DNA from: an uncultured Luminiphilus sp.
GTDB taxonomy: Bacteria; Pseudomonadota; Gammaproteobacteria; Pseudomonadales; Halieaceae
DNA: 36,153 nt
Assembly: GCA_938091485.1 (NCBI GenBank)
Contig: CALKMV010000049.1
Location: 1 to 36,153 of the forward strand
Direction of reading: 5' to 3'
A model generated the notes under the pieces. The model had not been told where the DNA came from. It saw only the letters and a list, made by a program, of their open reading frames with translations, and made no database searches. Made by a program: the position numbers and the translations under genes. Positions 31,536 to 36,153 of the stretch are shown here, one piece after another (within the stretch, counting starts at the first letter, position 1; every line of letters starts with the position of its first letter).

Positions 31536-31609
31536 GCGGGTGTAGTTCAATGGTAGAACGAAAGCTTCCCAAGCTTTAGACGTGGGTTCGATTCCCATCA
31601 CCCGCTCCA
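31536..31609 (+). tRNA. tRNA-Gly (anticodon CCC), CCA encoded
   Basis: Acceptor GCGGGTG/CACCCGC, D-arm GTTC..GAAC, anticodon arm AAAGC-TTCCCAA-GCTTT, T-arm GTGGG-TTCGATT-CCCAT. Confidence 0.95.
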
Positions 31610-32621: not shown

Positions 32622-32874
32622 ATGAACGAGTATATGCCCGAGGGCGCTGAAATACGGCGCGCCGCCGATAAAATCGAGTCGGTACTGAAGAACAAGACAA
32701 TCGAAAAGGTTGAGTTCAGACTCAAGCCGCTGAATAAAGTACGGGAAACCACTGGCGGGCACCAAAGTGCTTTCGCTGGAGACCCGTGGCCAGGCTTTAT
32801 TGACCCACTGCGATTCCGGCACCACGATTTACTCACACAATCAGCTCTACGGTGTGTGGCGGATTGTGAAATGA
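32622..32874 (+). pseudogene. nei: Decayed endonuclease VIII (Nei) gene remnant
   Basis: Frame 0: MPEGAEIRRAADKIESVLKNKTIEKVEFRLKPL; then +1 frame from about 32758: [38 protein letters not shown] then TGA at 32872; remainder of protein missing. Confidence 0.85.
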
Positions 32875-32970: not shown

Positions 32971-33009
32971 CCTCTGATATGATCGATCGAGAGCAAATCG
33001 ACTCAGAGG
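32971..33009 (+). promoter_or_regulatory. Inverted repeat and TGATATGATCG element ahead of the NTF2-like ORF
   Basis: CCTCTGA...TCAGAGG with 25-nt spacer; first 11 nt of the downstream-repeated element (TGATATGATCG). Confidence 0.35.
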
Positions 33010-33016
33010 GGCAACG

Positions 33017-33358
33017 ATGATGAAGGCGCTTTCACCGATTGGCGAGGCCATCCGGCATTACAAACTGAATGCGAGCGGTGGTTACGAGGAGTGGTCAAAG
33101 GTTGCGCGCGCACCAGACTACCGGATGCATGTGCCGGCCATGGGTTTTGACGTAACGGGCCATGACGAGGTGAGAGACGTCATCTTTGGGTGGCTAACCG
33201 ATATTGGTGCGGAACAAGAGCTCGTAGATATCGTCGAGTTTGGCGCCTCCGTGACCTGCTATCTGCATATCAAGGATAAAGAAGGGGTGGTGCTCGATAT
33301 TGTCGAAGTGTTCCAGATCGATGAAGAAGGAAGAGTGGCTGAAATCTGGGCGCTGTAG
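33017..33358 (+). CDS. SnoaL/NTF2-like fold protein
   Basis: 113 aa; YEEWSKVARAPDYRMHVPAMGFDVTGHDEVRDVIFGWL, EVFQIDEEGRVAEIWAL. Confidence 0.7.
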   Translation: MMKALSPIGEAIRHYKLNASGGYEEWSKVARAPDYRMHVPAMGFDVTGHDEVRDVIFGWLTDIGAEQELVDIVEFGASVTCYLHIKDKEGVVLDIVEVFQIDEEGRVAEIWAL

Positions 33359-33379
33359 ACATCATGGGCCCAACGGCCC

Positions 33380-33422
33380 TGATATGGTCGGTCAGGTCTG
33401 AGATTCCAAAAGGTCGGAAATG
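33380..33422 (+). repeat. Recurring 5' module, copy E1
   Basis: TGATATGGTCGGTCAGGTCTGAGATTCC...GGAAATG ending at the start codon of the next ORF. Confidence 0.7.
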
Positions 33423-33611
33423 ATGGGAACACTGCTTACAAAGTACGGGGATGTTTTCACCATGGTCATGATGGCCGGGGTGCTATGGCTAATGTATTTG
33501 CAAGATGGTGATTGGATCGCGGCTCTGTTAGCTGCGCTGATGGCTTTCGTTGCCCTGTTGAGGATCTATTTTCAGTTCTTTCACAAGCCGAAAGAGGCCG
33601 GAGATGAATGA
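33420..33611 (+). CDS. Small two-TM membrane protein, member A1 of duplicated pair
   Basis: 63 aa; LLTKYGDVFTMVMMAGVLWLMYLQDGDWIAALLAALMAFVALLRIYFQFFHKPKEAGDE; paralogue at 35133. Confidence 0.7.
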   Translation: MMGTLLTKYGDVFTMVMMAGVLWLMYLQDGDWIAALLAALMAFVALLRIYFQFFHKPKEAGDE

Positions 33612-33817
33612 TGAGTGAGATTTGGCAATTCATTAAGAAGTACGAGTTCTGGGTTCTGATGCTTCTGGTACTTGGGATGTATGTCGGCGAACAGCAGTTG
33701 GCCTCGAGGTGGCTGGGAGAGCTAGCCTTTGTTGTCTTTCTGATCGCCATTACTCGGCTGGCGATGCATCCGATGTGGAAGAAGGAAAAAAAGGCTGAGG
33801 AAGAAGCGACTGATTGA
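33608..33817 (+). CDS. Small two-TM membrane protein, member B1 of duplicated pair
   Basis: 69 aa; IWQFIKKYEFWVLM...ITRLAMHPMWKK...EEEATD; ATGA overlap with previous ORF; paralogue at 35330. Confidence 0.75.
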   Translation: MMSEIWQFIKKYEFWVLMLLVLGMYVGEQQLASRWLGELAFVVFLIAITRLAMHPMWKKEKKAEEEATD

Positions 33818-33877
33818 TTGGGTTCCAGTCTTGATATGATCGGTCAGGTCTGAGATTTCAGAGGCTCGGAGAAGATG
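33797..33877 (+). repeat. Recurring junction module copy 2 (tail T2 + 5' module E2)
   Basis: GAGGAAGAAGCGACTGATTGATTG ... TGATATGATCGGTCAGGTCTGAGATTT; same arrangement as 34145-34220. Confidence 0.8.
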
Positions 33878-34165
33878 GCGCGCCCCCTTACAAAACTCGC
33901 GTGGCTAATTGTCGGTGGGACAATCGCGCTCGCCACAATCTGGGCTTTCAATAATGCTGAATCCGACGTTCAACTGGCTTGCAGTCAAGCCGACAGCCGC
34001 CCCAGAACCTATGAATGCGTAGACGCACAAACCGGCGAGGTTGTATTGCTAACTTGCAGCTCTGTCTCCAGTGGGAAGCCCTCAATTGGTCTGCCGAAAA
34101 AAATGAACCTGAGAGCCATACCACCCAATTGCTCAGAACAGGCCGAGGAAGAAGCGACTGATTGA
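33875..34165 (+). CDS. Single-TM exported/anchored small protein with four Cys
   Basis: 96 aa; MARPLTKLAWLIVGGTIALATIWAFNN anchor; ends EEEATD, identical tail to the unrelated ORF at 33608. Confidence 0.65.
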   Translation: MARPLTKLAWLIVGGTIALATIWAFNNAESDVQLACSQADSRPRTYECVDAQTGEVVLLTCSSVSSGKPSIGLPKKMNLRAIPPNCSEQAEEEATD

Positions 34166-34220
34166 TTGAGCTCTTGTCTTGATATGATCGGTCAGGAATG
34201 AGATTTTAGAAGTAGCGGAA
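34145..34220 (+). repeat. Recurring junction module copy 3 (tail T3 + 5' module E3)
   Basis: GAGGAAGAAGCGACTGATTGATTG ... TGATATGATCGGTCAGG. Confidence 0.8.
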
Positions 34221-34229
34221 TGATCTAAC

Positions 34230-34502
34230 GTGGATCTCATAAAACTTTGGATGGCTAACGTGAAGTGGGCCACTCCGCTTCAAAGAATCACAACGACATT
34301 ATCGTTGGCTGCCGCGGTATTTTTCGGCAGTCTCGCATTCTGGCCAGAGCAGATGGGGAAAATATTGTGGCCAGTTCTGCAGCCTATCTATTATCCCGAA
34401 GAATCCGAATTGGACTGCGATGCACAAAAGGCATCTGACGTTGGTTGCCCTGATGTGGACATCGAAGTTCAAGAGATTGAGCCTCCAATAAACAAAGAGT
34501 GA
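34230..34502 (+). CDS. Single-TM small protein of unknown function
   Basis: 90 aa; GTG start; ITTTLSLAAAVFFGSLAFW hydrophobic segment, acidic C-terminus. Confidence 0.55.
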   Translation: MDLIKLWMANVKWATPLQRITTTLSLAAAVFFGSLAFWPEQMGKILWPVLQPIYYPEESELDCDAQKASDVGCPDVDIEVQEIEPPINKE

Positions 34503-34530
34503 CCCGAACGGGTTCTTATAACGCCGACAG

Positions 34531-34553
34531 AAGCCTCCGCCCTAGGGGCTTTT
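34531..34553 (+). terminator. Rho-independent terminator
   Basis: AAGCCTC-CGCCCTA-GGGGCTT followed by TTT. Confidence 0.65.
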
Positions 34554-34636
34554 GCATTCCTGAGATGCCCGAAATGTCCGGATTTATTTGTCGACAGAAT
34601 TTTGATTAATTCTCTGTCGATGAGGGGCAGCTTGGA

Positions 34637-35083
34637 GTGGCACAGGTGAAGGAATTTTTTATTGTATTCAAGCGGTGGAGAGACTTTTCCGGACGTTCTT
34701 CTCGCAGGGAGTACTGGATGTTCTCGCTAGTATCGATGATCATGGGCTTTTTTATGCCCATGCTGGATGCTTTCATTATCGGTTTCGTGGAGGGTGTTAG
34801 AGAAGGCATGGGGCTTGCGGAGCATATTACCCCCAGCACGACGTCGCCGGCACAGCTTTTGACGCTTACTAATGCCTACTTGCTGGTGACGCTCATCCCG
34901 AGCATAAGCGTCGGCGTCCGTCGCTTACACGACATTGATAAGAGTGGCTGGTGGTTTCTTATTACCCTAACCGTTATCGGGATTTTGCTCATTATCTACT
35001 GGGCGTGTGTGGTCGGTGACGAGGATGACAACCAATACGGGCCTCCGGTGTTACCAGACTTGGGGTCGTCAAATGCAGAGTAG
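34637..35083 (+). CDS. DUF805 membrane protein
   Basis: FKRWRDFSGRSSRREYWMFSL, VGVRRLHDIDKSGWWFLI, YGPPVL. Confidence 0.88.
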   Translation: MAQVKEFFIVFKRWRDFSGRSSRREYWMFSLVSMIMGFFMPMLDAFIIGFVEGVREGMGLAEHITPSTTSPAQLLTLTNAYLLVTLIPSISVGVRRLHDIDKSGWWFLITLTVIGILLIIYWACVVGDEDDNQYGPPVLPDLGSSNAE

Positions 35084-35132
35084 CCAGTCGGGTCGTTTGG
35101 ATGGGTAACCCCAGATTCCTGCCTTGGAGGAA

Positions 35133-35333
35133 ATGGTGAAGGTTTCCTCTAGGGTGCTTGAGCACCATGGGTTCGTTATTGCACTGATGGCGTTTGCTTA
35201 CATGGCGTACTCGGATTATTCGAGAGATGGTGACCTAGTAAATCTGGCCTTCTCCGTGGTGCTAGCGGTGCTTGCCATCCTTGCCACCTACTTTTACTCC
35301 TTCCATAAAGGGAAAGAGGACGAAGACAAATGA
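35133..35333 (+). CDS. Small two-TM membrane protein, member A2 of duplicated pair
   Basis: MVKVSSRVLEHHGFVIALMAFAYMAYSDYSRDGDLVNLAFSVVLAVLAILATYFYSFHKGKEDEDK; GGAGG SD ahead of ATG 35133 (ORF track opens at TTG 35124). Confidence 0.7.
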   Translation: MVKVSSRVLEHHGFVIALMAFAYMAYSDYSRDGDLVNLAFSVVLAVLAILATYFYSFHKGKEDEDK

Positions 35334-35524
35334 TGAGCGCGATTTGGCAATCCATTGTGAAGTACGAGTTTTGGGTTCTGATGACCATTTGCGTCGGACT
35401 TTTCATCGCCGAGAGAGTCACAGAGGACGCCACATTCGCGAGCATCGCTACCTTGATTTTCATAGTCGCCACTACTCGGCTGGCCATGCATCCGATGTGG
35501 AAGAAGGACGAGCAGGGCGAGTAA
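35330..35524 (+). CDS. Small two-TM membrane protein, member B2 of duplicated pair
   Basis: IWQSIVKYEFWVLM...TRLAMHPMWKKDEQGE; ATGA overlap with A2 as in the first copy. Confidence 0.75.
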   Translation: MMSAIWQSIVKYEFWVLMTICVGLFIAERVTEDATFASIATLIFIVATTRLAMHPMWKKDEQGE

Positions 35525-35542
35525 GAAGCGACTGATTGATTG
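35519..35542 (+). repeat. Tail module copy T4
   Basis: GAGTAAGAAGCGACTGATTGATTG, one mismatch to T2/T3 over 24 nt. Confidence 0.75.
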
Positions 35543-35855
35543 GGTTCCCATAACGCCGAAAGGGAAACGTGCCTGAATGAGAGAAGCCCAGATTCTTCCT
35601 CTAGTAAGTGGGGGTGGCACTTCCCGCAAATGAACAGGCCCGACCCCCTCCCCGGGGGTGGGTGTTTCCTCAGGTGTGGGGGTATGGCATTAGATAGAGG
35701 GCTGATTGCGCTGTGCTTCCAGCATGGAGAATCAGGGTAGAAAATAAAAGAAAACAAAATCAGTGAGTTAGTGATTTTAGGCAAAAGCGGCGGCGCTCAA
35801 GTGTAGGGCAAAATGTTGACCATACACCTCTAATAATCAGTGTATAAAACGATTA

Positions 35856-35877
35856 GCGGATTCCGTCCGCTCCGCCA
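35856..35877 (+). other. tRNA 3'-end-like sequence (tRNA-Ser-like acceptor, candidate att site)
   Basis: GCGGATTCCGTCCGCTCCGCCA followed by TTTT and a terminator; no complete tRNA around it. Confidence 0.35.
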
Positions 35878-35920: not shown

Positions 35921-36153
35921 TACGATAAATCAGCTTTTTTTACGGCAGTTCATTGCGACATTTTCCCGTTGAGAAGGGCGCTACAGAGTGGAGTGTATTG
36001 CGAGGGTCGGGGCCCCCCAAAGTCTCACGCTGCTAACAGTGTTACTGCTGCCATACATCAGAACCCAATGTAAAAAAAGCAACTATCGCCTGCAGTAGAT
36101 ACAAGCGATGGCAAAGTAGTGCTTTAGGCGCGCACCAATGTGAACGCTCCAAT

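Follow-up and report, generated by a model that had tools for sequence, protein, structure and literature searches.

A tRNA-Gly-anchored array of small genes behind a recurring promoter-like leader in an uncultured Luminiphilus: candidate integrative micro-cassettes

The small-gene array and module A

We analyzed a 36,153-nt stretch of DNA from an uncultured Luminiphilus sp. (assembly GCA_938091485.1, contig CALKMV010000049.1; hereafter the window), which runs to the contig end at position 36153 and belongs to a metagenome-assembled genome (MAG) that is 54.7% complete. Downstream of a tRNA-Gly(CCC) gene, eight co-oriented small open reading frames (ORFs O1 to O8; 63-148 aa) occupy positions 33017-35524, and several of them start behind copies of a conserved 5′ sequence, here called module A (Table 1). 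The original prediction, made from the letters of the window, had reported at least six such ORFs, most with transmembrane (TM) segments, joined by recurring junctions; by our count hydropathy predicts a TM segment in seven of the eight, O1 being the exception, and the products would mostly be small inner-membrane proteins. The coding sequences look real, because dN/dS between homologues of the cassette ORFs was 0.11-0.5 in most pairs, as expected under purifying selection; the values for O8 against its copies in contig C39 of the window's own genome (0.79) and in genome G072 (0.70) are weak evidence of coding. A repeat search showed that O2-O3 and O7-O8 are duplicated blocks, 1722 bp apart and 80-89% identical (repeats D2 and D3), and that the junction of tail module and leader is also present in duplicate (88% identity; D4).

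Module A is about 45 nt long and consists of an extended −10 box (TGnTAnnAT), a 14-nt palindrome (TCTGAGATTTCAGA), a leader and the ATG. The 5′ module as first given, TGATATGATCGGTCAGG, was found exactly at 33832 and 34180, with 1 mismatch at 33380 and, weakly, with 3 mismatches at 32975, and four matches were reached in 0/100 shuffles. The recurrence of both junction sequences (three copies and a weak one of the 5′ module, three of the tail module), noted in the original prediction, is real and far above chance; the 5′ module proved longer than written and runs to the ATG. The degenerate copy before O1 was not significant by itself (nhmmer E = 5). The invariant columns G5, T7, A8 and T12 are the key bases of the extended −10 box, and the other invariant positions fall in parts of the palindrome. 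A consensus promoter scan of the window passed over module A for want of a fitting −35 box, as would suit a promoter of the extended −10 type. An Rfam search of the window matched nothing but the tRNA-Gly, and no compensatory change was seen in 5 pairs of the palindrome across 9 sequences; we therefore rejected an RNA hairpin or riboswitch leader.

Table 1. Position and nature of the features of the array and its surroundings in the window.
Feature	Position	Strand	Remarks
tRNA-Gly(CCC)	31536..31609	+	Anchor of the variable region; sole Rfam match in the window
Degenerate module A before O1	32971..33016	+	3 mismatches in 17; ATG spacing as in the other copies
O1	33017..33358	+	113 aa, without TM segment; weak, sub-threshold match to DUF4904
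Module A copy 1 (promoter-leader)	33377..33424	+	64.7 bits
O2	33420..33611	+	63-aa membrane protein; paralogue of O7; homologue in G072 (L115)
O3	33608..33817	+	69-aa membrane protein, paralogous to O8; has homologues in C39 (own genome) and G072
Tail module copy 1	33800..33820	+	C-terminal codons EEATD* plus 3′ bases
Module A copy 2	33829..33876	+	68.2 bits
O4	33875..34165	+	96 aa, one TM; ~60% homologue in G071 (L116) with its own module A
Tail module copy 2	34148..34168	+	Motif match
Module A copy 3, diverged	34177..34224	+	55.4 bits
O5	34230..34502	+	90 aa, one TM, GTG start
O6	34637..35083	+	148-aa DUF805 membrane protein (Pfam 5.7e-29), own leader
Leader B	35111..35135	+	Like 3′ codons PRILPWRK of MKER-type cassette gene; overlaps next start
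O7	35136..35333	+	65-aa membrane protein
O8	35330..35524	+	64-aa membrane protein
Tail module copy 3	35522..35542	+	Motif match
Conserved stretch, ~100 nt	35780..35877	+	Ends in a tRNA-Ser-like 3′ end

Module A in other Luminiphilus genomes

A 49-position model of module A was searched against 58 genomes of the genus, so that the window was compared with 57 congeners. Beyond the window, strong matches were obtained in G024:C31, G020:C11, G003:C40, contig C39 of the same genome, G062:C52, G026:C26, G071:C57 and G062:C17 (genome:contig), and weaker ones in G072:C113 (two) and G020:C31. Module A occurs in 1-3 copies per genome and always adjoins the start of an ORF or an ORF remnant. Among 85,488 GTDB species genomes, its exact pattern matched only four MAGs titled Luminiphilus or Halieaceae, all of them congeners. 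The same exact-pattern search of IMG/VR viral contigs gave no match, nor did a plasmid search, and a plasmid origin and a viral origin of the module were both rejected on these grounds.

To define the conserved part, we profiled identity among ten module A copies, leaving out pairs with homologous bodies. Copies were 0.63-0.82 identical over a stretch that reaches 22 nt upstream and 24 nt downstream of the palindrome start; outside −22 to +24, identity dropped to 0.3-0.4, near the level of the shuffled control. In the congeners, this leader stands before about nine unrelated families of bodies. The bodies found behind it include O2/O7-type membrane proteins (window, G072), O4-type proteins (window, G071), O5, O8-type proteins (C39, G072), a 188-aa membrane protein (G020), MKER-type proteins (G024, G062), a short lipoprotein-like ORF (G003), a secreted-looking protein (G062:C52) and, behind degenerate modules in G020:C31, an NTF2-like protein and a Nif11 leader peptide. 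Module A leads straight into the O8-type body in C39 and G072; the window has O2 and O7 in front of O3 and O8. The 188-aa protein of G020 matches the MKER-type proteins over only ~31-34 C-terminal residues. One body can carry different leaders, as seen in the loci compared: in G020 the NTF2-like body is preceded by a degenerate leader A, and in G023 its counterpart (76% identical) is preceded by leader B. In the latter (G023:C57; L075:3157-3710), leader B and the NTF2-like gene were found directly 3′ of the tRNA that also anchors the window's array, tRNA-Gly(CCC). The Nif11-type leader peptide of G020:C31 (L120:8987-9229; Pfam 9e-10) is a possible precursor of a ribosomally synthesized and post-translationally modified peptide.

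With unrelated bodies behind it in congeners, module A is not merely a local duplication. The proposal that genes had been swapped between fixed flanks, with content varying while the junctions persist, was thus borne out for the 5′ module, which recurs at other loci of the genus, but not for the tail. The three tail-module copies compare with a mean chance expectation of 0.00 and the module is partly coding (EEEATD*). Elsewhere in the genus, however, matches with 1-2 mismatches were not above background, and the tail module was rejected as a general cassette boundary; because it is specific to this window, it is best read as a product of local duplication.

tRNA genes, duplicated tRNA ends and a DUF6538 integrase

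In 8/9 strong loci, module A is found 3′ of an intact tRNA gene and within 4 kb of it. The tRNAs concerned are Gly (window), Thr (C39, G026), Ser (G020), Arg (G024, G062), Ala (G071) and Phe (G062:C17). Against an assumed chance level of 5%, calculated from ~30 tRNA loci per 2.4 Mb with a 4-kb zone each, such proximity has P ~3e-10, zone and level having been picked after the loci had been seen. The DNA 3′ of tRNA-Gly(CCC) is itself variable in G020, G011, G072, G073, G023, G063 and G024; the same backbone genes follow the tRNA after as little as 0.65 kb in G011 and as much as 3.9 kb in G023, the cargo between them differing, and in G020 a homologue of O6 lies directly 3′ of this tRNA.

We scanned 15 cassette or integrase loci for duplicated copies of 61 tRNA 3′ ends, allowing up to 5 mismatches in 24. 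Six extra copies were found near these loci, whereas reversed ends gave 0 and a 65-kb control sample gave 1. Five of these copies are placed as a unit boundary would be, namely Thr (21/24) in C39, Ser (20/24) and Gly (19/24) in G020, and two Ala ends (24/24 and 23/24) in G072; the remaining one, in G024, is a weak Met-like end. Duplicated tRNA 3′ ends thus bound four related cassette loci (one in C39, two in G020 and one in G072), and the units so bounded measure ~0.8-1.6 kb. At G072:C113 (L115:6608-8270), an ORF resembling a hydrolase-cyclase fusion, as judged by eye, lies between the two tRNA-Ala 3′ ends, and the module-A-type cassettes lie outside these ends.

Related elements carry an integrase family with DUF6538 and Phage_integrase domains (Pfam). 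In G028, G024, G062 and G026, such an integrase or its remnant starts ~90 nt after tRNA-Thr or tRNA-Phe, and the integrase leader contains TCTGAAATCTCAGA, the reverse complement of the module A palindrome. The family was present in 4/7 genomes with strong module A, as against 6/58 overall (P = 0.001), and at three loci (G026:C26, G062:C17 and G020:C31) module A has an integrase, or what is left of one, no more than ~3 kb away. In G026 the homology to the integrase stops inside module A, at the 3′ edge of the palindrome; in G028 the leaders of a membrane ORF and of a tyrosine integrase are identical through GTGATGCA and then diverge. These two G028 genes, in convergent orientation, make up a 1.9-kb element with inverted ends beside tRNA-Thr (G028:C28; L190:3753-5721). 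In G062:C17 (L117:2370-3788), a single frame holds the N-terminus of a DUF6538 integrase followed by an FkbM methyltransferase domain, and may be a chimera, a frame fusion or an assembly error.

In the window, leader B was rejected as an independent module, since its sequence corresponds to the 3′ codons of an MKER-type gene (PRILPWRK). The conserved stretch at the right end, common to G016, G017 and G034 (L109, L111, L112), closes with GGATTCCGTCCGCTCCGCCA (35860-35877); no intact tRNA sharing this 3′ end was found, and the sequence was rejected as a host tRNA end, while the stretch as a whole may mark where an older integrative element ended. Next to the matching stretch, G016 and G017 have an ORF judged by eye to resemble a GIY-YIG protein. 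On the left, positions 32622-32720 gave a weak match to the N-terminus of Fapy_DNA_glyco (formamidopyrimidine-DNA glycosylase; E 0.002, below cut-off) and are probably a decayed gene.

Interpretation, alternatives and known systems

The explanation that we favor, and consider somewhat better than evenly supported, is that the array is an integrase-less, tRNA-Gly-anchored hypervariable island of micro-cassettes, each of ~0.3-1.6 kb and with one or two small genes, which are probably expressed and co-regulated through the shared promoter-leader. It draws on the conserved module, the exchange of bodies, the position next to tRNA genes, the duplicated tRNA ends of related loci and the co-occurrence of the integrase, all observed in the genomes compared. 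The cassettes would enter and leave at tRNA 3′ ends by means of a tyrosine recombinase supplied in trans by related elements, and homologous or recombinase-assisted exchange at the shared leader would put new bodies behind a ready promoter. Module A would be active as a promoter, and its palindrome could be an operator, or a site for a recombinase or accessory factor, that couples cargo expression to the integrase. The cassette idea of the original prediction holds up for the 5′ module and not for the tail; made without tools, the prediction could not see the anchoring at tRNA genes, the repeated tRNA 3′ ends or the connection with an integrase family. For phage defence, which it had named as one possibility, no evidence was found: PADLOC models gave no meaningful match in 10 ORFs scanned, no known defence family was found among those of the array, and a defence function was rejected for want of a convincing hit.

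Several points weigh against this island of tRNA-anchored cassettes. The window's own module A is ~1.8 kb from tRNA-Gly(CCC), with another gene between, and the window has no tRNA 3′ repeat within 5 mismatches. It contains no recombinase, as had been correctly noted, and its MAG, incomplete as it is, has no PF00589 match. The significance of tRNA proximity depends on the zone and chance level chosen with the loci in view, and the palindrome lacks compensatory changes, so that an RNA hairpin is not supported. Excision, expression and operator binding are considered here from sequence alone, and the cassette loci compared all come from draft assemblies, several of them at contig ends.

Module A could instead be an ordinary promoter and operator selected before the genes of one regulator, genes that happen to sit in islands. 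The confinement of invariant positions to the −10 bases and the palindrome would fit such a regulon, as would the reversed palindrome in the integrase leader. However, similarity extends past the palindrome toward the start codon (0.63 at +14 to +24), and each genome has few copies, which cluster near tRNAs, and both observations suggest shared descent; we regard a regulon as rather unlikely, and the regulon and cassette readings may be true together. It is more doubtful still that module A is itself the exchange site, a promoter-leader doubling as the recombination site of a DUF6538 recombinase acting in trans, where bodies would be spliced at the start codon in a 5′-site counterpart of the integron.

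Phage morons are single-gene insertions with their own promoter, and the module A genes might be moron-like cargo of tRNA-integrated satellites in a decayed prophage or phage-satellite region. The DUF805 protein O6 matches a moron-class PHROG, the cassettes appear as single genes with their own promoter, and related elements integrate at tRNAs with a tyrosine integrase. Viral contigs, by contrast, gave no exact-pattern match, only O2 among the other cassette ORFs scanned has a PHROG match (weak, function unknown), and by eye no packaging gene was noticed near the integrase, which leaves this origin distinctly improbable. Static tandem duplication of a small membrane-protein gene, with the shared flanks as leftovers, would explain the clearly duplicated O2-O3 and O7-O8 blocks, the paralogy of O2 and O7 and the confinement of the tail module to the window. 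Yet module A stands before unrelated bodies at other loci and in other species, and O4 and DUF805 homologues lie at tRNA islands in other genomes. As an account of the locus, static duplication is thus very unlikely; it is largely refuted for module A and still the best account of the tail module. An integron or a CALIN-type cassette array has next to negligible probability: small genes in a single orientation, variable bodies and recurring junctions recall one, but a consensus test (with no covariance model) found no paired RYYYAAC/GTTRRRY sites in the array, on which ground attC sites were rejected, the conserved part is 5′ and carries a promoter, unlike the 3′ attC, and no integrase was found in the incomplete MAG.

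If the favored reading is right, it suggests a route by which streamlined, abundant marine bacteria exchange single small membrane-protein genes, the promoter-leader being kept and the gene behind it changed, with exchange concentrated at tRNA genes. Module A would then serve as a 45-nt tag by which metagenomes could be searched for such cargo, and a tyrosine integrase would be tied, in a testable way, to how its cargo is expressed.

Among known systems, the cassettes resemble phage morons in being single genes with their own promoter, one of them encoding a DUF805 protein with a moron-class match, and differ in being chromosomal, at tRNA genes and with one leader shared by unrelated bodies. 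In mobile promoters and elements like miniature inverted-repeat transposable elements (MITEs), a short promoter sequence recurs before unrelated genes. Module A does likewise; unlike MITE-like elements, it is limited to 1-3 copies per genome, at ORF starts or remnants and mostly in tRNA islands, and we identified neither terminal inverted repeats nor target duplications belonging to it. Closer are the tycheposons and similar tRNA-integrated islands of streamlined marine bacteria, by definition (PMC10872708) elements of 4-200 kb with a tRNA border, a tyrosine recombinase and variable cargo. The Luminiphilus units share the border, the variable cargo and, in related copies, the recombinase; they differ in their size of ~0.8-1.9 kb, in often having no recombinase and in the promoter-leader kept before swapped bodies, and the window locus has the tRNA border of a tycheposon without its size or recombinase. 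Of the repeated tRNA 3′ end that would close the far side of a tycheposon-like element, C39, G020 (two loci) and G072 have a copy and the window has none within 5 mismatches; its positions 35860-35877 resemble a tRNA-Ser 3′ end for which no parent tRNA was found. CALIN are integron cassette arrays without an integrase that are mobilised in trans (PMC11389934). The Luminiphilus array is likewise a small-gene array without a recombinase, plausibly moved in trans. It differs in that it yielded no attC (nor IntI, which CALIN lack by definition), that what is conserved is a promoter-leader on the 5′ side, and that several units have tRNA 3′ ends at their flanks. Tycheposon-like tRNA islands (PMC10872708) and CALIN arrays (PMC11389934) are the nearest known systems, and the locus is best called one of tRNA-anchored integrative cassettes.

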